Below, in pieces: positions 42,382 to 60,409 of a stretch of 64,000 nucleotides of DNA (position 1 is its first letter; every line of letters begins with the position of its first letter). The stretch lies in the NCBI RefSeq assembly GCF_022664535.1, contig NZ_JAKUJY010000010.1, forward strand, positions 1 to 64,000, read 5' to 3'. This DNA is from Sphingobium trunci (GTDB lineage Bacteria; Pseudomonadota; Alphaproteobacteria; Sphingomonadales; Sphingomonadaceae). The notes beneath the pieces were generated by a model. It saw only the letters and a list, made by a program, of their open reading frames with translations, did not search any database and was not told the origin of the DNA. The position numbers were made by a program, and so were the translations under genes.

Positions 42382-42516
42382 ATGAGCCTGTTGCATTCCC
42401 TCATCCACGGCTGGCGCCGCCTGCGCGACGCGGCGCGGCGGGAATTTCTGCGCGATCCCGAAGTCATCCTGTTCGAACGCACCCTGCCCCATCAGGAAGG
42501 CACCGGTGGCCGCTGA
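42382..42516 (+). CDS. 44-residue protein opening the organosulfur locus, unknown
   Basis: A 44-residue polypeptide, MSLLHSLIHGWRRLRDAARR followed by EFLRDPEVILFERTLPHQEG and four more residues. It is basic and amphipathic, with no signal peptide. AAAGGA lies 5 bases upstream of the ATG, the best ribosome site in the area. Its last 11 bases overlap the GTG start of the first substrate-binding protein in another frame, which suggests translational coupling. It may be a leader or a small functional protein. I recognise no family. Confidence 0.65.
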   Translation: MSLLHSLIHGWRRLRDAARREFLRDPEVILFERTLPHQEGTGGR

Positions 42517-43495
42517 AATCTGGTCACGCCGGGGCCTTCTGGCCGGGGGCGCCGCGTCCTGCCTGCTGCTGGCCGGATGCGGGCGCGACAGCGGCGGCCG
42601 GCCTCGCTTGCGCGTTTCCGTGACGGGCAAGGGGGAGGGCGACACGCGGCTGCTGTTCAAATCGGCGGGGATCAAGCCGGAGGGCTTCGATATCGTCTAC
42701 AGCGATTTCCAATCGGGCCATCTGGTCGTCGAGGCGCTGAACGGCGGCTCGCTCGACTATGGCGGGATGAGCGAGATCCCGCCGATCTTCGCCGCCGCCT
42801 CCACCATCCAGAGCTTCCGCCAGATCGCCGTGGCCCATGGCGACGTCAACAATCAGGTCGTGCTGGTGCCCAAGGGATCGAAGGCGCGCAGCATCGCCGA
42901 TCTGAAGGGCAAGCGGGTCGGCTATGTGCGGGCCACCACCTCGCAATATTTCCTGATCCGCATGCTGGAGGAGGTGGGCCTCGGCTGGGACGACATCACG
43001 CCCGTCGCCATGGGCGTGTCCGACGGCGCCGCCGCCTTCTCGCAGGGGGCGCTGGACGGCTGGGCGATCTACGGCTTTCCCATCCAGCGCGCCATCGCGA
43101 CGGAGGGCGCCCGCATCCTGCGCACCGCCTATGGCATATTGTCGGGCAACTATCTGGTCGCCGCCCATGTCGACGCGCTGGCCGATCCGGAAAAGGCCAA
43201 GATCATAGCCGAATATCTGGGACTGGTGCAGCGCGCCTTCGGCTGGGCGGCGAAGAACCGGGACCAATGGGCATCGATCATCGCCCAGGACATCGGCGTG
43301 CCGCTCGCCTATGTGGCCGACCAGTTCCGGCGCCAGAGCGCCAGTTACGAACTGCGCCCGGTGACCGACCAGGCCATCGCGTCGCAGCAGCAGGTGGCCG
43401 ACCTGTTCTTCCGGCAGAAGTTGCTGCCCAAGGCCGTCGACGTGCGCCCGCTGTGGGACGCGCGGTTCAATGATTCCATTCCCAAGAGAGGCTGA
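42506..43495 (+). CDS. sulfonate-type ABC substrate-binding lipoprotein (first of three)
   Basis: A 329-residue protein of the SsuA/TauA fold. The N-terminus has SRRGLLAGG, a Tat-like twin arginine, and the lipobox LLAGC, so it is probably a lipoprotein. The fold shows in RLRVSVTGKGEG, GSLDYGGMSEIPPIFAA and the hinge block KGKRVGYVRATTSQYFLIRML. GALDGWAIYGFP is the conserved lobe-2 loop. Start is GTG at 42506, coupled to the 44-residue gene. It likely feeds the SsuC/SsuB transporter 3 kb downstream. Confidence 0.88.
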   Translation: MAAEIWSRRGLLAGGAASCLLLAGCGRDSGGRPRLRVSVTGKGEGDTRLLFKSAGIKPEGFDIVYSDFQSGHLVVEALNGGSLDYGGMSEIPPIFAAASTIQSFRQIAVAHGDVNNQVVLVPKGSKARSIADLKGKRVGYVRATTSQYFLIRMLEEVGLGWDDITPVAMGVSDGAAAFSQGALDGWAIYGFPIQRAIATEGARILRTAYGILSGNYLVAAHVDALADPEKAKIIAEYLGLVQRAFGWAAKNRDQWASIIAQDIGVPLAYVADQFRRQSASYELRPVTDQAIASQQQVADLFFRQKLLPKAVDVRPLWDARFNDSIPKRG

Positions 43496-43501
43496 AACAT
43501 C

Positions 43502-44686
43502 ATGGCCAGCCAGGCTGTCGCTCCCGAAGCTTTCCCGTCGTCTCCCACGCCGATCGGCCCGGACCTTCTGGACCGGATCACCCGGACGCTGGCGGAAACG
43601 GCGGAACATTATGACCGCACGGCGGAATTTCCCCGCGCCGGTTTCGACCTGCTGGGGCGGGAGGGGCTGATCGGCCTCACCGTTCCGCGCCATCTGGGCG
43701 GGCATGGCGCCGGTCTGTCCGAAGCCTTGCGCGTGCTGGGCGCCGTGGCGAAGGGCGAGCCGTCCACCGCCCTCATCCTCTTCATGACCTACCACTATCA
43801 TTCGACGCCGGAGCGGGCGCGGGCCTGGCCGCAGACCATCTATGAAAAGCTGGCGCGCCAGGCGGTGGAGGGGCGTGGGCTGATCGGCGGCCTGCGCGTC
43901 GAGCCCGAACTGGGCACGCCGGTGCGCGGCGGCCTGCCCGCCACGATCGCCCGGCGGACGGCGGACGGCTGGGCGATCAGCGGCACCAAAATCTACTCGA
44001 CCGGATCGACCGGGCTGGACTGGTTCTCGGTCTGGGCGAAGACCGACGATGACAATCCCCGCGTCGGCAATTTCCTGGTCCGCGCCGACAGCCCCGGCAT
44101 CGACATCGAACCGGCCTGGGACCATCTGGGGATGCGCGCCACCGTCAGCCATGCGGTGCATTTCGCCGACACGCCGGTCCCGCTGGATCATGCCGTCGAT
44201 ATCCGTCCGCCGGAACAATGGGCGACCGGAGCGGCCGATCCCGGCCCTGCGATCTGGAACGCGCTGTCCATCTCGACCATCTATGACGGCGTGGCGCGGG
44301 CGGCGCGCGACTGGCTGAGGGCCTATCTCAACGAACGGGTGCCCACCAATCTGGGCGCATCGCTGGCCACCCTGCCGCGCGTGCAGGAGAAATTCGGCGA
44401 GATCGAGGCCTTGTTGCAGGTCAACCGCACGCTGATCCGCGATGCGGCGGCCCGGCATGAGGCGGGCGACACGCCGGGCGCGACGGAGGCCAACACCATC
44501 AAATATGTCGCCACGGCCAATGCGATCCGCGCGGTGGAGATCGGGCTGGAACTGACCGGCAATCCCGGCATCAGCCGCAAGAATCCGCTGGAACGCCACT
44601 ATCGCGACGTGCTGTGCAGCCGCATCCATTCGCCCCAGACCGACACCATCCTGGTCGCGGCGGGACGGGCGGCGCTCGGAAACTGA
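43502..44686 (+). CDS. acyl-CoA dehydrogenase-fold flavoprotein, SfnB/DszC-like
   Basis: A 394-residue protein with the ACAD fold. The N-terminal helix set (LLDRITRTLAETAEHYDRTAEFPRAGFDLLGREGLIGLTVPRHLGG) and the beta domain (KIYSTGSTGLDWFSVWAKTDDD) are seen. Where isovaleryl-CoA dehydrogenase has its catalytic Glu, this protein has none (ISTIYDGVARAARDW). That favours the FMNH2-dependent monooxygenase branch (SfnB, DszC) that oxidises organosulfur compounds over a true dehydrogenase. It begins 6 bases after the binding-protein gene. The exact substrate is unknown. Confidence 0.82.
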   Translation: MASQAVAPEAFPSSPTPIGPDLLDRITRTLAETAEHYDRTAEFPRAGFDLLGREGLIGLTVPRHLGGHGAGLSEALRVLGAVAKGEPSTALILFMTYHYHSTPERARAWPQTIYEKLARQAVEGRGLIGGLRVEPELGTPVRGGLPATIARRTADGWAISGTKIYSTGSTGLDWFSVWAKTDDDNPRVGNFLVRADSPGIDIEPAWDHLGMRATVSHAVHFADTPVPLDHAVDIRPPEQWATGAADPGPAIWNALSISTIYDGVARAARDWLRAYLNERVPTNLGASLATLPRVQEKFGEIEALLQVNRTLIRDAAARHEAGDTPGATEANTIKYVATANAIRAVEIGLELTGNPGISRKNPLERHYRDVLCSRIHSPQTDTILVAAGRAALGN

Positions 44687-44701
44687 GGGGCGGGACCTGA
44701 G

Positions 44702-45646
44702 ATGTCATTGATCATCGCCAGCCAGCTGGAACCGGATTTCAACCACAGTCTCAGCCTCCATCCCTCCGGCCCGACCCTGATCGGCGTGCCGGAAGATGAG
44801 CCTTGGACCGCCGCTGGCGAGGCGGACATATTGCTGGTCCGCCCGTCGCTGGCATGGCGTCAGTCCGCTCCCGTGCGGCCGCGAAACTGGCCGGGGCGCC
44901 TGAAATGGGTCTACAGCGCGTCGGCCGGGATCGATTTCTACCCCGGCTGGCTGCTGGAGGCGCCGCTGGTCACTTGCGGCCGGGGCGTCGCCTCTGACGA
45001 GATCGCCGATTATGTGATCGCCGCCATCTACGCCCATGCCAAGGATCTGGAGTCGGTGACGGTCCGCTCGCGCGACCAGTGGGTGCAGGTTCCGCTGGGA
45101 CGGGTGTCGGGCACCACCATCGGCATCGTCGGGCTGGGCGCCATCGGCACCGCGGTGGCGCGGCGCGGGCTCGCGCTGGGCGCGCAGGTCATCGGTGTGC
45201 GCCGCAGCGGCGCCCAGTCGGGCATCAGCGGCGTGGAGCATGTCCGCGACCTCGAAACGCTGGTGGCGGCGGCCGACCATATCGTCGTCGCCGTCCCCGG
45301 CACGGCGGAAACGCGGCATTTGTTCGACGATGCGCTGCTGGCGCGGGTGAAGCCGGGCGCGCATATCATCAATGTCGCGCGCGGTTCGGTGATCGACCAG
45401 GATGCGTTGATCCGCGCGCTCGATCGCGGCGCGCCGGGCTTCGCGACGCTGGACGTCACCGAACCGGAGCCGCTGCCGGAGGGGCATCCGCTCTACAGCC
45501 ATCCGCGCGTGCGGCTGACCCCGCATATCTCCAGCAACTACAGCCTGGTCCGGCATCGCCTGCTGGAAAAGGTGAATGCCGACCTGTCCCGCTTCGTCCG
45601 GGGCGAAAGGCCGAGCGACGTCGTCGACCCGGTGCGGGGCTATTGA
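44702..45646 (+). CDS. D-2-hydroxyacid dehydrogenase, NAD-dependent
   Basis: A 314-residue member of the D-isomer-specific dehydrogenases. The Rossmann motif is GIVGLGAIGTAV. The catalytic Arg is in NVARGSVIDQDAL, the Glu in LDVTEPEPLPEGHPLY, and the His in LTPHISSN. The N-terminal part is short and unusual. In a sulfur locus the substrate could be a sulfonated or sulfur-containing 2-oxo acid, but this is inference from position. It ends 4 bases before a convergent LysR gene. Confidence 0.85.
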   Translation: MSLIIASQLEPDFNHSLSLHPSGPTLIGVPEDEPWTAAGEADILLVRPSLAWRQSAPVRPRNWPGRLKWVYSASAGIDFYPGWLLEAPLVTCGRGVASDEIADYVIAAIYAHAKDLESVTVRSRDQWVQVPLGRVSGTTIGIVGLGAIGTAVARRGLALGAQVIGVRRSGAQSGISGVEHVRDLETLVAAADHIVVAVPGTAETRHLFDDALLARVKPGAHIINVARGSVIDQDALIRALDRGAPGFATLDVTEPEPLPEGHPLYSHPRVRLTPHISSNYSLVRHRLLEKVNADLSRFVRGERPSDVVDPVRGY

Positions 45647-45650
45647 CGGT

Positions 45651-46487
45651 TCACAGTGTCTGGACCGTCTCTCGCGCCAGTTCGGTGAGCCGCTGGGCCG
45701 CCTTGTCCAGCTTGTCGCCCGCGCGCAATATCGCTGCGACGCGGGGCAGGGCGGGCAGGCGCCCATGATCCAGCGCCGCGCTGTCCTCCAGGAACAGATG
45801 GGTGCGGCAGGTGATGCCAAGGCCGGCGCTGACGGCCGCCTTCAGCGTCGCCAGATTGGGCGTCTCGACCGTGATCCGCCATTGCAGCCCGGCATCCTCC
45901 AGCGCGCGGATCGCCGCCTCGCGGAACCGGCACGGCTCCTCCAGCACGGCGAGCGGGATCACCTCGCGCTCCGCCAGCAGGCTCTCGCCATACCAGCTCA
46001 TCGGCGCGACCGTCACGGCATGGGGGTCGTTGGGCGCGGCAAAGCCCAGCACGATGTCCAGCTCCCGCCGCTCCAGCAGATTCTGCAATTCCGCCGTTCC
46101 CGCCACCCGCGCATAGATTTGCGCGTCGGGATGCAGTTCGGAAAAGCGCGAAAGAAGCCCGCTGAGCAGGGTGTCGGCGAAATCCTGGACCATCCCGATC
46201 CGCGCCGGTCCCGCGAAGCGCCCGGCGCTGACCGCCGCCACCGCCTCGTCATGCAGCAGCAGCACGCGCCGCGCATAGTCGAGCAGCACCTCGCCCGCCG
46301 CCGTCAGGTTCAGCCGCCGCCCTTCGCGCAGGAACAGCGTCTGCTGCACCAGCTCCTCCAGCCGCTTGATCTGGAGACTGAGCGCCGATTGCGTCACGAA
46401 AACCTGTTCCGACGCGTTCAGCATCGACCCGGTGTCGACGATGGCAACGAAGCTGCGCAGCAGGTTGGTGGGCAGGTTGACCGGCAT
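45651..46487 (-). CDS. LysR-family regulator of the organosulfur locus
   Basis: A 278-residue regulator. The winged-helix domain (LRSFVAIVDTGSMLNASEQVFVTQSALSLQIKRLEELV) is followed by an effector domain. It lies on the opposite strand between two transport blocks and is divergent from ssuC. In sulfur assimilation, LysR proteins such as CysB and Cbl are the usual regulators, but its subgroup is not proven. It may bind the palindromes upstream of the locus. Confidence 0.87.
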   Translation of the reverse strand: MPVNLPTNLLRSFVAIVDTGSMLNASEQVFVTQSALSLQIKRLEELVQQTLFLREGRRLNLTAAGEVLLDYARRVLLLHDEAVAAVSAGRFAGPARIGMVQDFADTLLSGLLSRFSELHPDAQIYARVAGTAELQNLLERRELDIVLGFAAPNDPHAVTVAPMSWYGESLLAEREVIPLAVLEEPCRFREAAIRALEDAGLQWRITVETPNLATLKAAVSAGLGITCRTHLFLEDSAALDHGRLPALPRVAAILRAGDKLDKAAQRLTELARETVQTL

Positions 46488-46775
46488 GAAGATCCTCGAT
46501 GGCAGAAACGGCGCCGATCCGGTGCCGGGTTCGATATGATCCTCTTATCGCCGATGTTTATATGTCAATCAAAATAGTTGAGATTTAGCCGGGGCAGAAA
46601 AATCTTCGCCGCTCTCGCCATGGCACCGAAATCCGCGGATTTGCGCGCTGGCATGGGCGTTTTTCGCGACCGGATGCCGCTTATCAGAATCCCTCATAGG
46701 TCGAGCAAAAAAAACTTAATTGAATTGGTAGACAATACATGTTGGGCTTGCGCCATCACAAACAGGGCGATGGAC
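46488..46775. promoter_or_regulatory. divergent promoter region between the LysR gene and ssuC
   Basis: A 288-base region that is AT-richer than its flanks, with no gene. TCAA (46565-46568) and TTGA (46578-46581) form an inverted repeat with a 9-base centre, a possible LysR site. A further AT-rich stretch (46705-46740) probably holds the ssuC promoter, but I see no convincing -35/-10 pair. Confidence 0.4.
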
Positions 46776-47594
46776 ATGACGGCATTGACGATCGACAGGC
46801 GCGGATCGGCGCGAACGGCAGCGGGCGGTTTTTCCCTGCTGCGGCTGGGCGGGCGCTGGCTTTCGCCGGTCGTCCTGCTGCTGCTCTGGGAACTGGGTTC
46901 GCGCACTGGGCTGATTCCCGAACGTACCCTGGCCGCGCCGTCGGCGGTCATCGGCACGCTGGTGCAAATGCTGCTGTCCGGCGAATTGCCCTCCAACCTG
47001 CTCGTGTCCTTCGCCCGGGTCGCCACCGGATTGCTGATCGGCGTCGGGCTTGGGGTGGTGCTGGCCCTTGTCGCGGGGCTTTCCCGGGGCGGTGAACTGG
47101 CCGTCGATCCGTTGATGCAGATCAAGCGGACCATCCCTCCGCTGGCCTTGACGCCCCTGTTCATCGTCTGGTTCGGCATTGGCGAAACGCCGAAGGTCGC
47201 GCTGATTGCCTTCGCTTCGGTGTTTCCGATCTATCTCAACCTCTACAGCGGCATCCGCAGCGCCGACGTGCGCCTGCTGGATGCGGCGAAGAGCTTCGGC
47301 CTCAGCCGCTGGGACCAGATCTGGCATGTTATCCTGCCGTCTGCGCTTCCCTCGTTGCTGGTGGGGCTGCGTTACTCGCTCTCCATCTCGATCCTCATCC
47401 TCGTCGTGTCGGAACAGATCAATGCGTCGGCGGGCCTGGGCTATCTCATCAACAATGCCCGCGATTTCATGCGGACCGACATCATCGTCGTCTGCCTCAT
47501 GGTCTACGCCATTCTCGGCCTGGGCGCCGACTGGCTGGTCCGCACCGTCGAAGCCCGCGCCCTCGTCTGGCGCCCCAGCATAGTGGAGCAATAA
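46776..47594 (+). CDS. ssuC: sulfonate ABC transporter permease
   Basis: A 272-residue inner-membrane permease with about six helices. The EAA loop is visible (LDAAKSFGLSRWDQIWHVILPSALPSLLVGL), as is FIVWFGIGETPKVALIAFASVFPIYLN, typical of SsuC. It partners the SsuB ATPase two bases downstream. The ATG at 46776 is chosen because AGGG lies 8 bases before it; an ATG at 46770 is too close. A longer upstream extension would cross the promoter region. Confidence 0.92.
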   Translation: MTALTIDRRGSARTAAGGFSLLRLGGRWLSPVVLLLLWELGSRTGLIPERTLAAPSAVIGTLVQMLLSGELPSNLLVSFARVATGLLIGVGLGVVLALVAGLSRGGELAVDPLMQIKRTIPPLALTPLFIVWFGIGETPKVALIAFASVFPIYLNLYSGIRSADVRLLDAAKSFGLSRWDQIWHVILPSALPSLLVGLRYSLSISILILVVSEQINASAGLGYLINNARDFMRTDIIVVCLMVYAILGLGADWLVRTVEARALVWRPSIVEQ

Positions 47595-47596
47595 GC

Positions 47597-48406
47597 ATGG
47601 ACGCTCGCCTTGGATTTTCGGTCGCGCCTTTTGCCGACCATCGCCCCCATAACCAACCCCATCCCGAACCTGTCGTCAGGCTCCGCGATTTCGTCCGCCG
47701 CTTCGGCGCCAACACGATCATCGACGGGCTTGATCTCGACATCGCGCCGGGCGAGTTCATCGCCCTGCTGGGCCGCTCCGGCTCCGGCAAGACGACGCTG
47801 CTGCGCACGCTCGCCGGGCTGGACGAGGTGCGCGGGCAGGATGTGGAAGTGCCCGATTCCCGCGCCGTCGTCTTCCAGGACGCCCGGCTGCTGCCCTGGA
47901 AGCCGGTGTGGAAGAATGTCGCGCTCGGCCTCAAGGGCGACAGGGTCCGCGACCGCAGCGAAGCCGCGCTGCGGGAAGTGGGCCTCGGCCATCGCCTCGA
48001 CGCCTGGCCGCTGACCCTCTCGGGTGGCGAGGCGCAGCGCGTGGCGCTGGCCCGCGCGCTGGTGCGCGAACCCCAGTTGCTGCTGCTCGACGAACCCTTT
48101 GCCGCGCTCGATGCGCTGACCCGATACCGGATGCACGATCTGGTCCTGTCGCTCTGGCGCGCGCACCGCCCTGCGGTGCTGATCGTGACCCATGATGTGG
48201 AGGAGGCGATCGCGCTCGCCGACCGGGTGCTGGTGCTCGACAAGGGACGCATCGTCGCGCAGGAACATATCGCCGCGCCGCGCGGCGAGCGGTCCGCCAT
48301 TTCGGGCCGCCTGCGCGAAAAGCTGCTCTCCTATCTGGGGGGCGACGATCATGGCGAGGGCGTGCTGCCCTTCGCGTCCCCCACCTTGGCCGAGGCGGCG
48401 GAATGA
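47597..48406 (+). CDS. ssuB: sulfonate ABC transporter ATPase
   Basis: A 269-residue ATPase with Walker [14 protein letters not shown], signature [14 protein letters not shown] and Walker [13 protein letters not shown], followed by the switch His in VTHDVEEA. The N-terminal ~30 residues are a slightly extended, polar lead. Energises the SsuC permease; probably serves all three binding proteins of the locus. The next gene starts within its stop (ATGA overlap), marking one operon. Confidence 0.94.
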
Positions 48407-49017
48407 CTGCCCTCGCGGCGCTTGACCGGCCGGTCGATACGGGCCGCCTGCGCGGTTTCGTCACCGCCTTTGCCGATCTGCTGGCGGCGACGCGGGACGA
48501 AGGCGCGATCCTGGAAAGCGGCCGCGCGCTGCTGACCCGCTTGATCGCGAAGGACGACTGGCTGCCGGAGCCGTTCACCCGGCCCCATCCCGCCCGCTAC
48601 CAGCAATATCTGCTCCACTGCGACAGCCGCGAACGGTTCAGCGTCGTCAGCTTCGTCTGGGGACCGGGCCAGGCCACGCCGATCCACGACCATACCGTCT
48701 GGGGCCTGGTCGGCGTGCTGCGCGGCGCGGAGAAGGTGGAACGCTTCCGCCGACTGCCGTCCGGCGGACTGGCTGCCGATGGCGAGGCAGTGCTGCGGGA
48801 GGGTGAGGTCGACGCCGTGTCCCCCCGCATCGGCGACATCCATCGCGTGACCAACGGCCTCAAGGACCGGCCCTCCATCAGCATCCATGTCTATGGCGCC
48901 AATATCGGCGCGGTCGAGCGGGCGACCTATGCGCCCGACGGCGCGCCCAAGACCTTCATATCGGGTTACGCGAACGGCGTGATCCCCAACCTATGGGACA
49001 GATCGGGAAACCTATGA
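48403..49017 (+). CDS. thiol dioxygenase, Gln-type (3-mercaptopropionate dioxygenase-like)
   Basis: A 204-residue cupin enzyme that adds O2 to a thiol to give a sulfinate. Iron ligands are His95, His97 (PIHDHTVWG) and His147 (GDIHRVTN). The Ser160-His162-Tyr164 triad (SISIHVYG) is intact. In the substrate site YQQYLL, Gln68 stands where cysteine dioxygenases have an Arg; that substitution marks the Gln-type enzymes known to prefer 3-mercaptopropionate. It also lacks a cysteine for the eukaryotic Cys-Tyr crosslink. ATGA-coupled to ssuB and to the rhodanese. Confidence 0.87.
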   Translation: MTALAALDRPVDTGRLRGFVTAFADLLAATRDEGAILESGRALLTRLIAKDDWLPEPFTRPHPARYQQYLLHCDSRERFSVVSFVWGPGQATPIHDHTVWGLVGVLRGAEKVERFRRLPSGGLAADGEAVLREGEVDAVSPRIGDIHRVTNGLKDRPSISIHVYGANIGAVERATYAPDGAPKTFISGYANGVIPNLWDRSGNL

Positions 49018-51385: not shown

Positions 51386-52345
51386 ATGTCGAAACGGAAA
51401 GTCGCCCTCCTGTCGGCGACCCTTGTCGCGGTGGCGGGCATCGGCTTCGCCGCCGCGAACTTTAGGGGCAAGGACGACAAGATTTTGCGCGTCGCCAACC
51501 AGAAGGGGCAGGTCAAGGCGATGATGCTCGCTTCGGGCGTGCTGAAGGGCGCGCCCTACAGCGTGGAATGGTCCGAATTTCCCGCCGCCCAGCCCTTGCT
51601 GGAGGCGGTGGGCGGCGGCGCGGCCGACCTCGGCCTTGCCGCCGACGCGCCCTTCATCTTCGCCTATCAGAGCGGCAGCCCGGTCAAGGCCATCGCCGTG
51701 CAGGCGCCCGCCGCGCAGGCCGCCGAAGCGCTGGCGATATTGGTGAAGAAGGGATCGCCGATCCGTTCGGCGGCCGATCTGGCCGGACGCTCGGTCGCGA
51801 CCACGCGCGGCTCGATCGGCCATCACCTGCTGCTCCAGGCGCTGGAGCGGGCGCAGATCCCGGTGGACAAGGTGCGCGTCACCTTCCTGACGCCGGGCGA
51901 TGCCAAGGCGGCGTTCGACAGCGGCGCGATCGATGCCTGGGCGACATGGACGCCCTATACCAACGTCGCGATCAAGGAAGGCGCGCGGACGGTCGCCGAT
52001 GCGAAGGATTACGGCCTGCCGCTCTATATCGACATCGCCCACGCCGATTCGATCGAACCCAAGCGCGCGCTGATGGCGGATTTCCTCCAGCGGGAGGCAA
52101 GGGCCGTCGCCTGGGCCCGCACCCATCCCGGCGAATTTTCGCAGGTGCTGGCGAAGGAAACCGGCCTGCCGCTCGACATCGCCCGCGCCAGTTTCGACCG
52201 CAACAACCGCGTGTCGCAACCGATCGACGGCAAGGTGATAGCGCATGAGCAGGAGATTACGGACCGGTTCCGCAAGGCCGGCCTGATCGCCGGCAATCGC
52301 GATGTCGCGCAGGCCTTCGACACCAGTTTCGGCAAGCGCGAATAG
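51386..52345 (+). CDS. sulfonate-type ABC substrate-binding protein (second of three)
   Basis: A 319-residue protein with an N-terminal hydrophobic segment (about 6-25), possibly a non-cleaved or Sec signal. The SsuA fold is seen in ADLGLAADAPFIFAYQSGSPVKA, LAGRSVATTRGSIGHHLLLQAL and AIDAWATWTPY. It begins 3 bases after the SsuD-like gene. It is more like the third binding protein (55062) than the first. The AWAT loop is shared with the third. Confidence 0.9.
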   Translation: MSKRKVALLSATLVAVAGIGFAAANFRGKDDKILRVANQKGQVKAMMLASGVLKGAPYSVEWSEFPAAQPLLEAVGGGAADLGLAADAPFIFAYQSGSPVKAIAVQAPAAQAAEALAILVKKGSPIRSAADLAGRSVATTRGSIGHHLLLQALERAQIPVDKVRVTFLTPGDAKAAFDSGAIDAWATWTPYTNVAIKEGARTVADAKDYGLPLYIDIAHADSIEPKRALMADFLQREARAVAWARTHPGEFSQVLAKETGLPLDIARASFDRNNRVSQPIDGKVIAHEQEITDRFRKAGLIAGNRDVAQAFDTSFGKRE

Positions 52346-52501: not shown

Positions 52502-55087
52502 ATGAAATATACCGGGTCATATCTTCATTCCACCGCCCTTGCGGCGGCGCTGCTTTTCTCGACGCCGCTGGCCGCGCAGACGGTCGCGACGCCGGATACG
52601 TCGGCGGATGCAGCGGGGGACAGTGGCACCATCATCGTGACCGGCGTGCGCGGCGCGCCCCGCACGGTGGCGGAAAGCCCCGCGCCGATCGACGTGGTCG
52701 GTGCGGAGAAGCTGCAGGGCACGGGTTCGGCGGAGTTTGGCGAGGCGCTGTCGAAACTGCTGCCGTCGCTGAACTTCGGCTCCACCAATGCGGGCGTCTT
52801 CTCGATCGGCCGCCCCGTCACCAACCGGGGTCTCTCGCCCGCCTACACGCTGGTGCTGGTCAACGGCAAGCGGCGGCACAATGGCGCCTTCCTCAACAAC
52901 AGCCCGACCGACACGTCGGGCGTCAACCCGGTCGACCTCGATCTCATCCCGACGAGCGCGATCGACCGCATCGAAGTGCTGAAGGACAGCGCCGCCGCCC
53001 AATATGGTACCGACGCCATCGCCGGGGTCATCAACATCCAGCTCGCGAAGAAGGAGGGGCTGAGCGGCGATTTCACCTATGGCACGCTCTACAGCGCCAA
53101 CGGCAGTCCCGACAGCTGGAAGGGCACCATCCGCTACGGCACGAAGATCGGCGACAATGGCGGCTTCCTGACGATCAGCGGCGATATCCGCAAGCGCGGC
53201 GGGGCGTGGTGGAACCTGCCCGCGACCGACACCAACCTCTATGGCCTGCCGTCCGGCCGTACCGTGGACCAGGTGGTGGCGTCCAGCGGCCTCACCCGCG
53301 CCCAGGTGCTCGCCAATGTCGCGGCGGCCAACGCCCGCAACGCGCAGTGGAACCGCGACGGCGCGCATAATGGCGATCCCCAGATCAAGGCGTTCAACCT
53401 TGGCTACAATGCAGAACTGCCGGTGACGGACAATGTCACCCTCTACAGCTTCGGCACCTATGGCGAACGCGACGCGCAGATCGGCAATAATTTCCGCCGC
53501 CCGAACGGCACCGCCAATTTCACCGCCCTTTTTCCCGACGGCTATTATCCGCTCAACAATATCGCTGAGGATGATTTCCAGTTCGTGGGCGGGCTGAAAG
53601 GCGTGCTCTGGGGCTGGGACTATGATGTCAGTTCGTCCTTTGGTCGCAACTACAGCCACCAATATTCGAAACTTTCGATCCGCCCTTCGCTGGGACCGGA
53701 CAGCCCGACCTATTGGCCCAATCTCGCCAATTTCGAATTCCGCCAATGGACCCATAATGTCGACCTGCACCGCAGCGTCGACATCGGCCTTGCGAAGCCG
53801 CTCGAAATCTCGGTCGGCGGCGAATATCGGCTGGACCGGTTCCGCACCTTCGCGGGCGATCCGCTCGCCTATCAGCCCGCGACCTACACGTTCAAGCCCG
53901 GCGACCAGCAATATGACTGGAATGTCGGCCTCGCCGCCTCGCCCGTGGTGCAGGGGGCCATCGTCCTGTCCCCCGCCGACCAGGCCGATATCAGCCGCAA
54001 GGTCTATGCCGGCTATGTCGATCTCGGCATCTATCCGCTCGACGCCTGGTATATCGGCGCCGCGATCCGCGCCGAACATTATAGCGACGGGTCGGGCAGC
54101 CCGATCGGGCTGAAGCTCAACAGCCGCTATGAATTCAGCCCCGCGCTCGCCATTCGCGGCACGGTGGGCACCGGCTTCCGCGCGCCGTCGCTGACCCAGA
54201 TCGGCTATGCCCAGACCGACGGGCGCACCGCGCTGGTCTTCAATCCGGCCACCGGCGTCACGGAACTGCGCCCGACCGTCGCGAAGCTGGTGACGGCGGA
54301 TTCGACCGTGGGCCAGTTGCTGGGGGCAAAGCCGCTCAAGGCGGAAAAGACCTGGAATGCCGGGCTGGGCCTCGTCTTCACGCCCGCGCCGTCGCTCTCG
54401 GTCACGCTCGATGGCTATTATATCCGCATCAGGAACCGGATCGAGCGCACCGGCCGCCTCTTCGGCACCGGTATTTCCAGTATCCTCGCCGCCAACGGCC
54501 TGTCGGACATCCAGCAGGTCGAATATTTCATCAACGCCGCCGATACCAGCACGCGCGGTTTCGACCTGGTGGCGGACTATTCGACCGGCCTTGGCGATCT
54601 CGGCAAGCTGGGCGTGACGCTGGCCTTCAACTATTCCAGGACGAAGGTCACGAACGTCATCGACACGCCGTCGCAGCTTTTCGCCGCCAACGGCACGTCG
54701 CTGCTGGGCGCGGGATCGGTCTTCTTCGGCGGCGACAAGATCGGCGAGCTGGAGGTGCTGCAGCCGCACACCAAGCTGGTCAGCACGTTCAACTGGTCGA
54801 AGGGTATTTTCGGCATCAACGTCACCGCCACCCGCTACGGCAAATATACGCAGCGCACGGCGGCGGGCGACGACCGCCATTTCGGCGCGAAGATCATCAC
54901 CGACGCCAGCATCAGCGCGAAGGTGACCCGGTTCGCGACCCTTTCGGTCGGGGCGACCAACCTGTTCGACGTGCGGCCCGAAACCAACGGGCCGGGCAGT
55001 CCGCAAACCGGGCAGGGCTATTATGGCCCGTCGCCCTTCAACCCGGCAGGGGGCTATTATTATGGACGGATCGCGCTTGCTTTCTGA
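52502..55087 (+). CDS. TonB-dependent outer-membrane receptor of the organosulfur locus
   Basis: An 861-residue receptor. A signal peptide (about 1-25, ending LAAQT) precedes a TonB box-like IIVTGVRG and a plug domain (FGEALSKLLPSLNFG, VLVNGKRRHNGAF, SAIDRIEVLKDSAAAQYGTDAIAGVINI). A long beta-barrel follows, ending in a terminal Phe. The plug is of the large sphingomonad CirA-like type. Embedded between binding proteins two and three, so it probably brings the organosulfur compound across the outer membrane. Ligand unknown. The next gene starts 26 bases inside it. Confidence 0.9.
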   Translation: MKYTGSYLHSTALAAALLFSTPLAAQTVATPDTSADAAGDSGTIIVTGVRGAPRTVAESPAPIDVVGAEKLQGTGSAEFGEALSKLLPSLNFGSTNAGVFSIGRPVTNRGLSPAYTLVLVNGKRRHNGAFLNNSPTDTSGVNPVDLDLIPTSAIDRIEVLKDSAAAQYGTDAIAGVINIQLAKKEGLSGDFTYGTLYSANGSPDSWKGTIRYGTKIGDNGGFLTISGDIRKRGGAWWNLPATDTNLYGLPSGRTVDQVVASSGLTRAQVLANVAAANARNAQWNRDGAHNGDPQIKAFNLGYNAELPVTDNVTLYSFGTYGERDAQIGNNFRRPNGTANFTALFPDGYYPLNNIAEDDFQFVGGLKGVLWGWDYDVSSSFGRNYSHQYSKLSIRPSLGPDSPTYWPNLANFEFRQWTHNVDLHRSVDIGLAKPLEISVGGEYRLDRFRTFAGDPLAYQPATYTFKPGDQQYDWNVGLAASPVVQGAIVLSPADQADISRKVYAGYVDLGIYPLDAWYIGAAIRAEHYSDGSGSPIGLKLNSRYEFSPALAIRGTVGTGFRAPSLTQIGYAQTDGRTALVFNPATGVTELRPTVAKLVTADSTVGQLLGAKPLKAEKTWNAGLGLVFTPAPSLSVTLDGYYIRIRNRIERTGRLFGTGISSILAANGLSDIQQVEYFINAADTSTRGFDLVADYSTGLGDLGKLGVTLAFNYSRTKVTNVIDTPSQLFAANGTSLLGAGSVFFGGDKIGELEVLQPHTKLVSTFNWSKGIFGINVTATRYGKYTQRTAAGDDRHFGAKIITDASISAKVTRFATLSVGATNLFDVRPETNGPGSPQTGQGYYGPSPFNPAGGYYYGRIALAF

Positions 55088-56027
55088 TCGGCGCGGCTTT
55101 CTGGCGGGCGCCGCCGCGCTTGGCCTCGCCGCCTGCGGCGGGGCCGGGAAGGGGGGACGGGTGAAGCTCGTCCTGGGCGATCAGGTCCACCTCCTCCAGT
55201 CGAAGATGGAGGCGGCGGGCGCGCTCGACCATCTGTCCTACGACATCCAATGGGCCAATTTCGCCGGGGCGGCCCCGCTGCTGGAGGCGCTCAACGCCGG
55301 GGCGGTGGACACGGCCCCGGCGGGCGACCTGCCCGTCATCCTCGCCGCCGCCGCCGGAGCGCCGCTGCGGATCGTCGCCGGTTCCCGCTTCTCGCCGCGC
55401 GACGTCGGCATCATCGTGCCGCCCGGATCGCCGATCCGCAGCCTTGCCGACCTGCCGGGCCGCCGCGTCATCGTGTCGAGCGCGCGGGGCAGCATCGCCC
55501 ATTATCTGCTGCTCGAAGCGCTCAAGGAAGCGAAGGTCGACCGCCGCCGCGTCGACATCGGCTTCATGCTGCCCAACGACGCGGCTGCGGCCTTTGCAGC
55601 CGGGCGCGTCGAGGCATGGGCGACCTTCGGCCTCTACCAGATCGCGGCGGAACAGCGCGGCGCGCGCATCCTGCGCGACGGTCAGGGGATCAGTTCGGGC
55701 CTCGGCCTGATCGCCGCGTCCCGGGCCGCGCTCGACGATCCGGCAAAGCGCGCCGCGCTGCGCGACGTGCTGGCGCGGTTGCAGCAGGCCAGCCTCTGGG
55801 CACAGGCCCATCCCGATGCCTATGCCCGCCTCTTCGCCCGCCAGACCGGCGTGGACGCTCCTCTCGCGAAACTGGTCGTGGAGCGGGAAAACCCCGTGCT
55901 GATCGCCTCCGACGCCGCCGTCACCGTGCCGCTCCAGCGGGTGGTCGACCGCTTCTACGCCGACGGCGAACTGCCTGCCCATGTCGAAGTCGCGAAGCTG
56001 GTCGAGCCGGGCATCTTCCCTGCATGA
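55062..56027 (+). CDS. sulfonate-type ABC substrate-binding lipoprotein (third of three)
   Basis: A 321-residue protein with a Tat-like SDRRGFLAG motif and the lipobox GLAAC. The SsuA fold shows in AGAVDTAPAGDLPVILAAAAGAP, LPGRRVIVSSARGSIAHYLLLEAL and VEAWATFGLYQ. The start lies inside the end of the TonB receptor gene in another frame, a 26-base overlap that indicates coupling. Together with the two others it gives three binding proteins for one permease-ATPase pair in the locus. Confidence 0.88.
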   Translation: MDGSRLLSDRRGFLAGAAALGLAACGGAGKGGRVKLVLGDQVHLLQSKMEAAGALDHLSYDIQWANFAGAAPLLEALNAGAVDTAPAGDLPVILAAAAGAPLRIVAGSRFSPRDVGIIVPPGSPIRSLADLPGRRVIVSSARGSIAHYLLLEALKEAKVDRRRVDIGFMLPNDAAAAFAAGRVEAWATFGLYQIAAEQRGARILRDGQGISSGLGLIAASRAALDDPAKRAALRDVLARLQQASLWAQAHPDAYARLFARQTGVDAPLAKLVVERENPVLIASDAAVTVPLQRVVDRFYADGELPAHVEVAKLVEPGIFPA

Positions 56028-56109: not shown

Positions 56110-56901
56110 ATGGCCACCATCTTGAAGGATGATCGTTTCCGCCATTCGGACGTCAGCGAAGCGGAATGGAAGGTCCGCGTCGATCTGGCCGCCTTCTACC
56201 GCCTCTCCGCCCTCTACGGCTGGGACGATTTCATCTACACCCATATCTCCGCCCGCGTGCCGGGGCCGGAGCATCATTTCCTCATCAACCCCTTCGGCCT
56301 GATGTTCGATGAGATCACCGCGTCCAGCCTGGTGAAGGTCGATCTCGACGGAAACGTCATCGGGGAAAGCGACTATGGCATCAACTATGCGGGCTATGTG
56401 ATCCACTCGGCGATCCACGGCGCGCGGGAGGACGCTCATTATATCGCCCATTTCCACAGCGCCGACGGCATGGCGGTCTCGGCCCATGCCGAAGGGCTGC
56501 TGCCGCTCAACCAGCGCGCGCTGGGCCTGATCCCGCGCCTTTCCTACCATGATTATGAGGGCGTCGCGCTCAACCTCGACGAACGCGAGCGGCTGGTCGC
56601 CGACCTGGGCGACACCAGGATCATGCTGCTGCGCAATCACGGCACGCTGGCGCTGGGATCGACGCCGGGCGAGGCGTTCAGCGGCATCTATCATCTGGAG
56701 GAAGCCTGCAAGGCGCAGGTCCGCAGCCTCAGCATCGGCCGCGACAAGGTGCTGATCGCGCCCGAAGCCGCGCAGGAGGAAGTCCGCAACCAGATCAGCC
56801 GCGAACGCAAGCCGGTGGAGGGGGCGAAATCCCACGACCAACTGGTCTGGGAGGCCGCCCTGCGCAAGGCGCAGCGCCAGTCGCCCGGCTTCGACGCCTG
56901 A
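56110..56901 (+). CDS. class II aldolase/adducin-family protein
   Basis: A 263-residue protein with the class II aldolase fold. The likely zinc ligands are the His pair in AHFHSADG and the His in RNHGTLALG. LYGWDDFIYTHISARVPG is the N-terminal family block. Members include fuculose-phosphate aldolases, decarboxylases and non-enzymatic adducin-like proteins, so the activity is open. In this locus it might cleave a sulfur-containing hydroxy-ketone after desulfurisation (inference). AAAGGAG lies upstream of the ATG. Confidence 0.82.
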   Translation: MATILKDDRFRHSDVSEAEWKVRVDLAAFYRLSALYGWDDFIYTHISARVPGPEHHFLINPFGLMFDEITASSLVKVDLDGNVIGESDYGINYAGYVIHSAIHGAREDAHYIAHFHSADGMAVSAHAEGLLPLNQRALGLIPRLSYHDYEGVALNLDERERLVADLGDTRIMLLRNHGTLALGSTPGEAFSGIYHLEEACKAQVRSLSIGRDKVLIAPEAAQEEVRNQISRERKPVEGAKSHDQLVWEAALRKAQRQSPGFDA

Positions 56902-56914
56902 AAGCACCAGGGCC

Positions 56915-58264
56915 ATGAGCAAGCGCCAATTGAAACTGGGCCTCGTCCCCACCGGCGTCGGCGGTCCCGGCGACAGCAACCGCTGGCTGGACACGGACAT
57001 CCCGCTCGACGCCAGCGTCAATATCGACTGGTATGTGGACGTCGTCCGCCAGGCGGAGGCGGCGAAGTTCGACCTCGTCTTCATCGTCGACAGCCAGTTC
57101 ATCACCGCCCACTCGCCGCCGCACTATCTCAACCGGCTGGAGCCGCTGACGCTGCTCTCCGCGCTGGCGACGGCGACCAGCCGGATCGGTCTCGTCGGCA
57201 CGCTCACCACCTCCTATAACGATCCCTTCAATCTCGCCCGCCGCTTCGCCTCGCTCGACCTCATCAGCAAGGGGCGAGCGGGCTGGAACGTCGTCACCAG
57301 CGGGGACGCAGGCACGGCCGGGAATTTCAGCCAGCCCGAACATTTCGACTATGACACGCGTTACCGCCGCGCCGTCGAATTTCTGGAGGTAACCCGGGGC
57401 CTCTGGTCGTCTTGGGAAGAAGGCGCCCTGGTCCGCGACCGGGCGACCGGCCAGTTCCTCGATCCCGAAAAGCTCCACCGGCTCGATCACCAGGGCGAAT
57501 TCTTCCAGGTGGTGGGGCCGCTCAACATCCAGCGCTCGCCGCAGGGGGAGCCGGTGATCTTCCAGGCGGGCGACAGCGATCAGGGCCGGGATCTCGGCGC
57601 GACCATCGCCGACGCCATCTTCACCCATGCCGCGACGATCGAGCAGGGGCAGGCCTTCTACGCCGACCTCAAGGGCCGCGCGACGCGCCTGGGGCGCAAC
57701 CCCGACCATATCGTCATCCTGCCGGGCTTCACCGTCACCGTCGGCGACACCGATGCGCAGGCGCACGAGATCGCCCGGCATTATCGCCAGCTCGACCAGA
57801 GTTTCGACCAGGCGCTGGCCGAATTCGGCCGCCCCTTCGGCTGGCACGATTTCCGCCAATATGATCCGGACGCGCCCTTCCCGGCGGAGGCGCTGGACCA
57901 TGCGAAAAGCAGCTTCTACACCCAGGCGAAGAAAGTCACCGACCTCGCGGTCGCGGAGGGGCTGACCCTGCGCCAGACGGTGGAGCGCGCCAGGGCGGGG
58001 CGGGTCAGCCCCTTCACCGGCTCGGCCGAAACCGTGGCGAACGAGATCCAGCGCTGGTTCGAAGGCCGCGCGCTCGACGGCCTCAACGTCCATCTCGGCC
58101 ACCCGGCGCAGTTCACGCGCTTCGTCCGCGAGGTGGTGCCGATCCTGCAGGATCGCGGCCTGTTCCGGCGCGACTATGAAGCGGACACGCTGCGCGGCCA
58201 TCTGGGCCTGCCGGTTCCCCAAAACCGAAACCGGCAGCAGCACGGCAGGCGCGATGCGGCCTGA
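56915..58264 (+). CDS. LLM monooxygenase of the NtaA/DszA family
   Basis: A 449-residue flavin-dependent monooxygenase of the long NtaA/SnaA/DszA type. Key blocks are PPHYLNRLEPLTLLSALA, FASLDLISKGRAGWNVVTS, FLDPEKLHRLDHQGEFFQVVGPLN and VIFQAGDSDQGRDLGA. Relatives cleave nitrilotriacetate, EDTA or dibenzothiophene sulfone with FMNH2. The sulfur setting suggests a sulfone- or sulfonate-type substrate. 13 bases after the aldolase-like gene. A close paralogue lies opposite at 59072. Confidence 0.88.
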   Translation: MSKRQLKLGLVPTGVGGPGDSNRWLDTDIPLDASVNIDWYVDVVRQAEAAKFDLVFIVDSQFITAHSPPHYLNRLEPLTLLSALATATSRIGLVGTLTTSYNDPFNLARRFASLDLISKGRAGWNVVTSGDAGTAGNFSQPEHFDYDTRYRRAVEFLEVTRGLWSSWEEGALVRDRATGQFLDPEKLHRLDHQGEFFQVVGPLNIQRSPQGEPVIFQAGDSDQGRDLGATIADAIFTHAATIEQGQAFYADLKGRATRLGRNPDHIVILPGFTVTVGDTDAQAHEIARHYRQLDQSFDQALAEFGRPFGWHDFRQYDPDAPFPAEALDHAKSSFYTQAKKVTDLAVAEGLTLRQTVERARAGRVSPFTGSAETVANEIQRWFEGRALDGLNVHLGHPAQFTRFVREVVPILQDRGLFRRDYEADTLRGHLGLPVPQNRNRQQHGRRDAA

Positions 58265-58303
58265 CGGCGGCGGGTATCAACGGGCAGCTTCAAGGAGATC
58301 ATG

Positions 58304-58966
58304 ATGGCGACGATAATCAATGCAACGCTCAAGGATCGCTATGCCGCCCTGCAGGCGGAGCGCGAACGCAGCTGGAGCCCCGCCCAGCTTGAGGGCAACG
58401 CCCGCCAGCGCCGCCTGCTGGTCGAGCGTTTCGATCCCGCCGCCCTGGCCCAGCCCGGCACGGTCCTGCCGCCGCTGTCCTTCGACGAAGTCGATGGCGG
58501 CACGCTCACGCTGGACGAACTTACGGCCGGGGGAGCCGCATTGTTCGTCTTCTTCCGCTTCGCCGGATGCCCGGCCTGCAACATCGCCCTGCCGCACTAT
58601 GCCGAAACGCTCTTCCCCGGACTGCGGCAAAGGGGCATTCCCCTGGTCGCGCTCAGTCCGCAGTTGCCGCACCTGCTGCGCGACATCAAGCAACGCCACG
58701 ACTTGCCCTTTTCCGTGGCGAACGATGCCGACAATCAACTGGCGCATCTGCTGAACATCGCCTTCCAGCCGGATGACCGCCCGTCGCCGCCGCCGCCCGG
58801 CTGGATCGGCGAAGTGACCGGCACCGGAAGCTGGGAACTGCCCCAGCCGGCCCTGCTGCTGCTCGGGCAGGGGCGGGTGGTGCGCTGGCTTCAGGCCAGC
58901 CCCGACTGGCTCGACCGGCCCGAATCGGACGATATTTTGCGCGATGTCGACCGGCATCGCGGCTGA
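58304..58966 (+). CDS. AhpC/TSA-like thioredoxin-fold protein with CxxC
   Basis: About 220 residues with a peroxiredoxin/thioredoxin fold. The active-site segment is FFRFAGCPACNIALPHYAE, with the Cys pair at 89 and 92, followed by RGIPLVALSPQLP. Pairing of two cysteines at CxxC is closer to an atypical Prx or a reductase than to AhpC. It may detoxify peroxide released by the flavin monooxygenases or reduce thiols in the pathway. AAGGAG precedes two ATGs (58301, 58304); the second has the better spacing. Confidence 0.8.
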   Translation: MATIINATLKDRYAALQAERERSWSPAQLEGNARQRRLLVERFDPAALAQPGTVLPPLSFDEVDGGTLTLDELTAGGAALFVFFRFAGCPACNIALPHYAETLFPGLRQRGIPLVALSPQLPHLLRDIKQRHDLPFSVANDADNQLAHLLNIAFQPDDRPSPPPPGWIGEVTGTGSWELPQPALLLLGQGRVVRWLQASPDWLDRPESDDILRDVDRHRG

Positions 58967-59009
58967 CGCGCTCGCCAAGCCGCGTCGATCCTGACCCTCG
59001 CAAATGAAG

Positions 59010-59045
59010 GGGCGGGGGAGGGCCTATGCCCTCCCCCGCCCATTT
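59010..59045. terminator. strong bidirectional terminator
   Basis: A perfect 14-base stem, GGGCGGGGGAGGGC against GCCCTCCCCCGCCC, with the loop CTAT, followed by ATTTT on the plus side. It separates the convergent peroxiredoxin-like gene and second NtaA-like gene. Confidence 0.9.
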
Positions 59046-59071
59046 TCCTGCCCGATGGAGGTGCGCGGCGA

Positions 59072-60409
59072 TCAGGCCGCGCTCTTTTCCGCCACCTTCC
59101 CGCTGTAGCGGTTGACCGGCTGGGGCAGGCCCAGATGTTCGCGGAAGGTCGTTCCCTCATAATCGGTGCGGAACAGGCCGCGCGCCTGAAGGATCGGGAT
59201 CACCCTGTCGACGAACAGGTCGAGCTGGCCTGGCAGCGCCTCGAACAGCACGAAGCCGTCGGCCGCCCCGCTCTCGAACCAGGACTGCAGCCGGTCCGCC
59301 ACCGTCTCGGCCGATCCGACGAAGGCGCCGCGCGGGGTCGCCAGCCGCTCGGCCACCTGCCGCAGCGTCAGATTTTCGGCCCGCACCTGCGCGATGATGC
59401 GCAGCGTCCCGCTCTGCTGGCTGTTGAGGCCGATATGCTCCACATCGGGGAAGGGTGCGTCCAGCTCATATTGGCGGAAGTCATGATCGTTGAAGGTCCG
59501 CGACAGGAAGCCCAGGCCCGTGTCGATCGATTCCAGCGCGGCCAGTTCGCGATAGCGTGCCTCGGCATCCTCGTCGCTATCGCCGACGATCGCGGCGATG
59601 CCCGGCAGGATGAAGAGCTGGGCGGGGTCGCGGCCGAAGCCCCTGGCCCGCGCCTTGACGTCGGCATAATAGGCCTGTCCGGCTTCCTCGTCCTCGGCAT
59701 GGGTGAAGATGACCTCGGCCCGCTTCGCCGCGAAATTGCGGCCGTCGTCCGACGCGCCCGCCTGGAAGATGACCGGCTGCCCCTGCGGCGTGCGCTTGAT
59801 GTTGAGCGGCCCGCGCACCTGGAAGAACTCGCCCTTGTGGTCCAGCCGGTGGAGCTTGTCGGGATCGACGAACCGGCCGCTTTCCTTGTCCGCGACATGG
59901 GCGCCTTCCTCCCAACTGTCCCACAGCCCCTGCACCACGTCCAGATATTCCCTGGCGATGCGGTAGCGCACGGCATGGGGCGGATGCTCGGTCTTGCTGA
60001 AATTGGCGGCGGTGTCGCCCAGCCAGGAGGTGACGATGTTCCACCCCGCGCGCCCGCCGCTCAGATGGTCGAGCGAGGCGAACTGGCGGGCGACGTTGAA
60101 CGGCTCGGAATAGCTGACGGTCAGCGTCGCCACCAGCCCGATGCGCGATGTCGTCGCCGCCAGCGCGGACAGGATGGTGATCGGTTCGAAGCGGTTGAGA
60201 TAATGCGGGCTGGACTTTTCCGTGATCGACAGGCTGTCGGCGACGAACAGGAAGTCGAACTTGCCGCGCTCGGCGGTCGCGGCCTGCTTCTGATAATAGG
60301 ACAGGCTGGTGCTGGCATGGACGTCGCGGTCCGGATGGCGCCAGTCGTTCCAGGTCCGGCCGACGCCGTGGAGAATGAAGCCAAGCTTGATATGGCGTTG
60401 CTGGGGCAT
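59072..60409 (-). CDS. LLM monooxygenase of the NtaA/DszA family (second copy)
   Basis: A 445-residue paralogue of the enzyme at 56915. Matching blocks include [61 protein letters not shown] and [16 protein letters not shown]. The pair may act on two related substrates or on successive steps. It is on the opposite strand and separately promoted; the upstream region (60410-60577) is gene-free and includes the palindrome TTGATCAA at 60498-60505. Confidence 0.88.

Follow-up and report, generated by a model that had tools for sequence, protein, structure and literature searches.

A conserved gene cluster of Sphingobium trunci predicted to import organosulfur compounds and release their sulfur

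We analyzed a stretch of 64,000 nucleotides from Sphingobium trunci (assembly GCF_022664535.1, contig NZ_JAKUJY010000010.1, positions 1 to 64,000; source genome 4.67 Mb), hereafter called the window. A preliminary description, made from the sequence alone, had set apart positions 42382-60409 as a locus of organosulfur acquisition. This segment of 18 kilobases (kb) holds 17 genes, their families taken from Pfam and NCBIfam scans, and we predict the set to import organosulfur compounds and to release their sulfur. The genes and the other features are as follows.

42290..42308, no strand: perfect 19-base-pair inverted repeat CAAGCATT-TCT-AATGCTTG, a candidate LysR operator with a putative function
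42382..42516, plus strand: small gene, 44 amino acids, motif RREFLRDPxVILFER; its end overlaps the SBP1 start
42506..43495, plus strand: SBP1, SsuA-like binding protein (family scans)
43502..44686, plus strand: ACAD, acyl-CoA-dehydrogenase-family flavoprotein of the DszC/MsuC/SfnB kind (family scan, C-terminal IHSPQ motif)
44702..45646, plus strand: HADH, D-2-hydroxyacid dehydrogenase (family scans)
45651..46487, minus strand: LysR-type regulator (Pfam scan)
46488..46775, no strand: divergent LysR/SsuC promoter region with two conserved A+T-rich blocks (49-row alignment)
46776..47594, plus strand: SsuC-type permease (likely start 46776; longest open reading frame from 46578)
47597..48406, plus strand: SsuB-type ATPase (family scans)
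48403..49017, plus strand: MDO, predicted Gln-type thiol (3-mercaptopropionate) dioxygenase (family, PDB match, active-site residues)
49014..50276, plus strand: RHOD, three rhodanese domains (family, alignment with 1YT8; open reading frame start 48993)
50294..51382, plus strand: LLM1, SsuD-like luciferase-family protein without the SsuD catalytic residues (family scan, residues)
51386..52345, plus strand: SBP2, SsuA-type binding protein (above the family cut-off)
52502..55087, plus strand: TBDR, TonB-dependent receptor (family scans)
55023..56027, plus strand: SBP3, SsuA-like binding protein (likely start 55062)
56110..56901, plus strand: ALDO, class II aldolase/adducin-fold protein, PRK07044 subfamily (family, H-x-H and NHG motifs)
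56915..58264, plus strand: LLM2, NtaA/DmoA-type flavin monooxygenase (above the family cut-off)
58301..58966, plus strand: PRX, AhpC/TSA-family protein with a C-P-A-C motif (family, motif)
59010..59041, no strand: terminator-like hairpin with a stem of 14 pairs, readable from either strand and placed between the converging PRX and LLM3
59072..60409, minus strand: LLM3, NtaA/DmoA-type monooxygenase, YtnJ (CmoJ)-like (family cut-off, best PDB match)

All families named in the preliminary description were recovered within the segment, including the LysR regulator and the C-P-A-C peroxiredoxin; its gene list had missed the 44-codon gene, the ATG of which is position 42382. The small gene, SBP1, ACAD and HADH lie on the plus strand and are followed by LysR on the minus strand. 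Beyond LysR, the plus strand carries SsuC, SsuB, MDO, RHOD, LLM1, SBP2, TBDR, SBP3, ALDO, LLM2 and PRX, and LLM3, the last gene, converges with PRX across the hairpin. Many same-strand neighbors overlap or lie a few bases apart (SsuB and MDO overlap by 4 bases, LLM1 and SBP2 are 3 bases apart), and this tight spacing suggests three plus-strand transcription units.

Comparison with other genomes of the genus, 94 in all, showed that the cluster is a real conserved unit with a fixed core and exchangeable blocks. Matches to MDO are present in 39 of the 94 genomes. The genus loci referred to below are the 34 in which MDO is at least 73% identical to that of the window, the window's own locus being excluded; this set leaves out five of 39 loci (L128-L132, MDO 53-63% identical). 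Genes were searched at an identity of at least 65% in 20-kb regions, some of which run into contig ends, so that the counts are lower bounds. The core LysR-SsuC-SsuB-MDO-RHOD-LLM1-SBP2 forms an unbroken run in 33 of the 34 genus loci, with gaps of no more than 372 bases between aligned parts; by a test set beforehand, its neighbors are thus not shuffled among unrelated genes in close relatives. The complete 15-gene order from SBP1 to PRX is found in 15 loci. By gene, RHOD, LLM1 and SBP2 occur in all 34 loci, SsuB, SsuC and LysR in 33, HADH in 32, ACAD in 29, ALDO in 28, SBP1 in 27, TBDR in 23, PRX in 22, SBP3 in 20 and LLM2 in 18.

Co-inheritance extends beyond the core. When MDO (at least 73% identity) and ALDO (at least 87%) were scored across the 94 genomes, 33 had both, 58 had neither, two had MDO alone (G158 and G179, 81% complete) and one had ALDO alone (G211, 60% complete), giving a Fisher p value of 8e-22 with relatedness ignored. 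In 12 of 12 genomes the MDO locus contains the best genome-wide match to ALDO; these genomes were chosen for having ALDO in the locus and therefore serve as support only. Similarly, all 33 genomes with an ACAD match of at least 70% identity also have an MDO match, two of these ACADs being partial (G154, G174). In three loci, L097 (G189), L101 (G174) and L106 (G154), parts of TBDR or ALDO are distant from MDO or on separate contigs; the fragmentary TBDR of G154 and G189 and the fragmentary ACAD of G154 and G174 suggest decay or rearrangement.

The accessory blocks vary considerably. One group of genus loci, including S. scionense L018, is without TBDR, SBP3 and LLM2 yet has PRX-LLM3, while the megaplasmid of TomTYG65 carries the core together with TauD, a TonB receptor and a distal peroxiredoxin-monooxygenase pair. 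The TauD-family dioxygenase is a further exchangeable block beside the core (L020:16626-17495, L133:18948-19814). None of the plasmid records covers 80% of the cluster in one place. Since accessory blocks are swapped or change ends around a fixed core, several substrates fit better than one, and the earlier idea of a single compound with a carbon part fed to the aldolase and dehydrogenase is not borne out.

The edges drawn in the preliminary description, 42382 and 60409, held up: the flanking genes are not shared by the relatives' loci examined. On the left, a minus-strand TonB receptor, a PilZ-containing cellulose-synthase-like glycosyltransferase and an HlyD-type adaptor adjoin the cluster (36178-42148); the HlyD and glycosyltransferase genes (38843-42148) have no match in any of the 33 genus loci with an upstream flank examined, the flank of G214 being only 1.7 kb long and the 34th locus, G222, ending at a contig edge. 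On the right, a GntR/FCD regulator, a Gfo/Idh/MocA oxidoreductase and an aldehyde dehydrogenase follow LLM3 on the minus strand (60578-63997), and none of them has a match in the ten genus loci with further downstream flank examined; the regions of the other 24 reach at most about the position of GntR. Weak matches to the Gfo, aldehyde dehydrogenase and GntR genes (28-34% identity), each seen once on the upstream side, were not counted.

Beyond the genus, we considered named loci, the best 80 of 533, which are thus skewed to close relatives and include several from one species and, in one case, from one genome; five of them, from Sphingobium, repeat genus loci. RHOD lies directly 3' of MDO in 77 of the 80, at a gap of no more than 94 bases. 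Scored for 16 families at 40% identity or better (MDO itself counted), the 45 loci from Pseudomonas, Azotobacter and Azomonas hold 2-12 families, with at least seven in 24 of them, and the 19 other alphaproteobacterial loci hold 2-14, with at least seven in 17. The 11 remaining named loci hold 1-8 (at least seven in two). As a control, twenty 20-kb regions from ten of these Pseudomonas genomes, their positions picked by hand with the content unseen, hold none (18 regions) or one (two regions) of the 16 families. Among the Pseudomonas loci read gene by gene, the fullest, L088, has SBP3-SsuB-SsuC, LLM1, ALDO, LysR (only 25% identical), MDO, RHOD, SBP2, LLM3, PRX, SBP1, ACAD, HADH and a TonB receptor in a rearranged order; the row recurs in L059, where SBP3 has no match, and in L047, where PRX has none. 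That the set stays together despite rearrangement is the strongest sign of joint function.

At the center of the core, MDO is predicted to be a dioxygenase of the 3-mercaptopropionate type. It is closest to Sphingobium proteins among the matches listed, and against solved structures it scores 264 bits with 6XB9 versus 28.7 bits with mercaptosuccinate dioxygenase. The iron ligands H95, H97 and H147, the triad S160-H162-Y164 and R173 are constant in 119 of 119 loci, and Q68 is present in 118. Passages on the enzyme Av3MDO name His 90, 92 and 142, Arg168, Tyr159 and Gln63 (PMC8050391) and a Ser155-His157-Tyr159 triad (PMC10966181). The MDO residues correspond to this set, so that the active-site residues of a 3-mercaptopropionate dioxygenase are retained.

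RHOD aligns lengthwise with 1YT8, a thiosulfate sulfurtransferase of 539 residues that we take to be PA2603. A stretch before the C-terminal tail is absent; we take this to mean that the fourth domain of 1YT8 has been lost and the tail kept. Only the second domain has a cysteine in the active-site loop, C203 (counted from the open reading frame start at 48993), and this residue is constant in 113 of 113 loci.

Assignments of the flavin-dependent enzymes are of unequal strength. Both LLM2 (492 bits) and LLM3 (550 bits) are above the cut-off of the NtaA/DmoA family TIGR03860 (279.7). The best solved-structure match of LLM2 is 3SDO; that of LLM3 is Bacillus subtilis YtnJ (537 bits), presumably the same protein as CmoJ, and a CmoJ-like activity is predicted for it. 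PRX has an LLM gene as its neighbor in 23 of 24 copies from genus loci and in 20 of 29 from named loci, two of the latter repeating genus loci. LLM1 scores 222 bits with the SsuD family, the cut-off of which is 518. Assuming that the catalytic residues of Escherichia coli SsuD are C54, R226, H228, R297 and Y331, LLM1 has S, S, R and F at C54, R226, H228 and Y331, and T at R297, where a gapped stretch makes the alignment uncertain. These substitutes are themselves conserved (S225 and R227 in 86 of 86 orthologues, F329 in 85 of 86), and LLM1 is therefore unlikely to be a plain alkanesulfonate monooxygenase; plain alkanesulfonate chemistry is not supported for the cluster.

ACAD is assigned to family level only: it scores 93.3 bits with SfnB (TIGR04022), far below the cut-off of 430.9, and 58 bits with DszC (cut-off 850). 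Acyl-CoA dehydrogenases carry a catalytic glutamate motif (EGT) at the position of its C-terminal motif, which reads I/V/A-H-x-P-Q in 72 of the 73 rows shown and IHSPQ in the window copy. An H-x-P-Q motif at this place is as expected for a monooxygenase-type member. The best NCBIfam match is 3-sulfinopropanoyl-CoA desulfinase (NF042439), at 113 bits versus a cut-off of 600; a role as such a desulfinase was dropped, given the low score and no CoA-activating gene in the cluster scans. A second ACAD type, 43-57% identical and encoded on the opposite strand beside HADH, replaces or adjoins the usual SBP1-ACAD pair in L016, L098, L101, L103, L106 and L108.

ALDO is also unusual for its family. FucA-type class II aldolases presumably have their catalytic glutamate in a P-S-S-E-x-x-x-H motif. 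At this site, 58 of 62 ALDO orthologues carry INYAGYVIHSAIH, and the motif of the other four contains no glutamate; the H-x-H and NHG motifs are present in all 62. Among solved structures, 3OCR, adducin, 4XXF and NovR are the closest to ALDO; a structure model with a mean predicted local distance difference test score of 40.5 was not used. The labels SsuD (LLM1), aldolase (ALDO) and SfnB/DszC-like (ACAD) thus appear doubtful, and annotations of the kind may mislead: SsuD without the SsuD residues, aldolase without the aldolase glutamate, SfnB.

The transport set comprises one TonB receptor, three SsuA-type binding proteins and one SsuC/SsuB pair. SBP2 scores 173.6 bits with the SsuA family TIGR01728, above its cut-off of 163.5. 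The leader of SBP1 is presumably of a twin-arginine lipoprotein-like type.

From family and residue evidence we infer the uptake, chemistry and regulation of the cluster as follows. The TonB receptor and the three binding proteins, sharing one SsuB/SsuC pair, would import several related acidic organosulfur compounds. DszC-like ACAD, LLM1 or both could oxidize thioether sulfur to the sulfoxide, and the YtnJ/CmoJ-like LLM3 and LLM2 would cut the C-S bond to give an aldehyde and a sulfenate, which the C-x-x-C protein PRX may reduce to the thiol. MDO would then convert the thiol to a sulfinate that ends as sulfite, the final desulfination being given to no gene with confidence. RHOD may handle sulfane sulfur, HADH and ALDO may process carbon skeletons, and LysR would switch the set on when sulfate is short. 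This succession of thioether, sulfoxide, sulfenate, thiol, sulfinate and sulfite is proposed on the basis of a CmoJ-like gene in the set, a C-x-x-C gene beside an LLM gene and MDO in the core. In its general form, in which organosulfur compounds are imported and their sulfur is likely released as sulfite, first by flavin-dependent cleavage of C-S bonds and then by a thiol dioxygenase of the 3-mercaptopropionate type, we consider this function of 42382-60409 moderately probable.

Several observations weigh against it. MDO was not found in 55 of the 94 genus genomes, and 21 of the 45 Pseudomonas-type loci have six or fewer of the 16 families. The candidates for C-S cleavage are inconstant, even though contig ends make the counts lower bounds: LLM2 occurs in 18 of 34 genus loci, and LLM3 adjoins the cluster in 14, six times at the PRX end and eight times at the SBP1 end (L155, L161, L165, L167, L171, L173, L187 and L192), where it points away from SBP1, is 87-92% identical and is not next to PRX. 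SBP1 (161.3 bits) and SBP3 (151.2 bits) fall just below the cut-off of TIGR01728. The acetyltransferase and deacetylase of the CmoO/CmoJ route are not among the cluster gene products scanned, the rest of the genome not having been searched for them, nor did the cluster scans show a CoA ligase or transferase that could serve a sulfinopropionate route. In Pseudomonas protegens, deletion of the rhodanese gene (tst) brought no significant change in 3-mercaptopropionic acid (3-MPA), according to passages of PMC12947264. Finally, up to four oxygenases of the cluster depend on flavin, yet it encodes no flavin reductase. This absence had been noted in the preliminary description, and the reductase-family matches of the genome, seven to PF01613 and three to PF03358, all lie on other contigs; flavin reductases encoded there could supply reduced flavin mononucleotide (FMNH2). 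Of the import and desulfurization system claimed at the outset, the conserved unit stands and uptake plus C-S cleavage fits its families best, while the word complete is not supported, there being no flavin reductase in the cluster.

The closest competitor is an island of the ssu/msu/sfn kind for scavenging sulfonates in general, in which each oxygenase would take a sulfonate or sulfone of its own and liberate sulfite from it directly, and MDO would oxidize only 3-mercaptopropionate or cysteine that the cell itself produces. The cluster does have SsuBC, binding proteins of the SsuA type and an SsuD-like protein, and a TauD homologue adjoins the core in TomTYG65 and in Novosphingobium L020. However, LLM1 is without the SsuD residues, the substitutes being nearly invariant, and MDO-RHOD is the most constant pair among the best 80 of 533 loci, which would be odd for a peripheral activity. 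Such an island is possible, if somewhat unlikely.

A narrower version of the preferred import and C-S cleavage function ends specifically at 3-mercaptopropionate. Thioether acids, for example methionine-derived 2-hydroxy- or 2-oxo-4-methylthiobutyrate or 3-methylthiopropionate, would be imported, trimmed by HADH and the NovR-like ALDO, and S-dealkylated by the DszC-like and CmoJ-like flavoenzymes to 3-mercaptopropionate, which MDO would carry through the sulfinate to sulfite. We put this forward tentatively and think it rather unlikely in its full form; if true, it would supply the missing physiological job of bacterial 3-mercaptopropionate dioxygenase and place a new 44-residue protein in the system.

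Alternatively, the cluster might serve thioether acids as carbon sources, as in 3,3'-thiodipropionate or dithiodipropionate catabolism, with 3-mercaptopropionate oxidized and desulfinated for its carbon. Passages of PMC5373536 describe an mdo-acd-LysR neighborhood in Advenella, and the Sphingobium cluster likewise combines a 3-mercaptopropionate dioxygenase with an acyl-CoA-dehydrogenase-family protein having the desulfinase as its best match; yet that score is far under the cut-off, neither a CoA transferase or ligase nor a Tct-type transporter appeared in the cluster scans, and SsuABC-type uptake is generally typical of sulfur rather than carbon acquisition. This explanation is improbable. 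Still less probable is detoxification of reactive thiols or xenobiotics, in which MDO, RHOD and PRX would be protective and the transporters would import unrelated nutrients. PRX and RHOD do belong to redox and sulfur-transfer families, and passages of PMC12947264 describe 3-MPA as an antimicrobial that accumulates in a P. protegens dioxygenase mutant, but three binding proteins, a pair of ATP-binding cassette (ABC) genes and a TonB receptor in one unit argue for nutrition, and SsuBC lies within the core in 33 of 34 genus loci. A chance neighborhood of unrelated sulfur genes, which the swapping of blocks between genomes might suggest, is highly improbable in view of the conserved gene order in the genus and the nearly empty control regions.

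The small gene at 42382-42516 looks like a real protein that has escaped annotation. A related frame precedes SBP1 on the same strand in all 27 genus loci having SBP1 (at least 65% identity), with translations of 44-53 residues (start codons assigned by script) around the core RREFLRDPxVILFER. Over 13 core codons, differences from the window fall on codon positions 1, 2 and 3 as 35:16:106 in 24 of the 27 loci, the count omitting three that do not fit the script pattern. The product has no Pfam match, and a protein database search gave only the window's own copy and no annotated relatives. Among 148 family genomes drawn, the window's own was the sole match, the two other genus genomes of the draw also being without MDO. 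The cluster thus exposes an unannotated small protein.

Candidate regulatory sites were also noted. The inverted repeat at 42290-42308 lies ahead of the small gene, 12 bases before a promoter-like site at 42321-42348; an alignment of 28 rows shows conservation of its left arm and spacer but only partial conservation of its right arm. A strict-pattern search of the window gave no further copies of the A+T-rich blocks of the LysR/SsuC promoter, and we keep these blocks as candidate operators only. Rfam gave no RNA element at gathering scores.

Among the papers listed by searches of open-access literature, in which most subscription papers are missing, we recognized no description of this cluster. 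It is a conserved composite of known families and offers a testable role for MDO. With the alkanesulfonate and dimethylsulfone systems ssuEADCB, msuEDC and sfnG it shares SsuBC, SsuA-type transport and luciferase-family and DszC/MsuC-like oxygenases, but has neither the SsuD residues nor a flavin reductase, and adds three binding proteins, a TonB receptor and MDO with RHOD as a constant core. Like the dsz 4S pathway, it pairs DszC-like and DszA-like families, although its DszC score is low and no DszB-like desulfinase is among the families found in the cluster. The S-alkylcysteine salvage of B. subtilis by CmoO/CmoJ resembles it in that LLM3 is YtnJ-like and, in the window, the thiol-redox gene PRX adjoins LLM3, the B. 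subtilis operon presumably encoding a redox partner too. According to passages of PMC10863075, CmoJ cuts the C-S bond of a sulfoxide, yielding an aldehyde together with a sulfenic acid that is subsequently reduced. The thiol dioxygenase of the Sphingobium cluster would, in contrast, route sulfur to sulfite and not to cysteine.

LysR, thiol dioxygenase, rhodanese and ABC genes also stand side by side in the mercaptosuccinate dioxygenase cluster of Variovorax B4 and Advenella, which differs in having an amino-acid-type ABC transporter and a cystathionine beta-lyase; the same source, in the passages concerned, describes mercaptosuccinate and dithiodipropionate clusters in Advenella (PMC5373536). 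Those of PMC5157978 deal with a different thiol pathway. In Gordonia grown on organosulfonates, cysteine dioxygenase, sulfurtransferases and NTA-type monooxygenases are more highly expressed (PMC7661421, in part), which fits a role in sulfur starvation, though in a distant organism.

The closest parallel is the Pseudomonas 3mdo-tst pair PA2602-PA2603 (3USS/4TLF and 1YT8), to which MDO and RHOD are homologous and likewise adjacent; RHOD differs from it in being without the fourth domain, and the literature passages on the pair give its surrounding cluster no role. Deletion of 3mdo in P. protegens raised extracellular 3-MPA, and, according to passages of the same 2026 paper, it is still unknown what 3-MPA does in pseudomonads (PMC12947264). 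While 3-mercaptopropionate dioxygenase has been well studied as an enzyme, its cellular role is unsettled. The cluster ties MDO to one set of uptake and C-S cleavage genes in Alpha- and Gammaproteobacteria, and thus makes this role testable on single sulfur sources.

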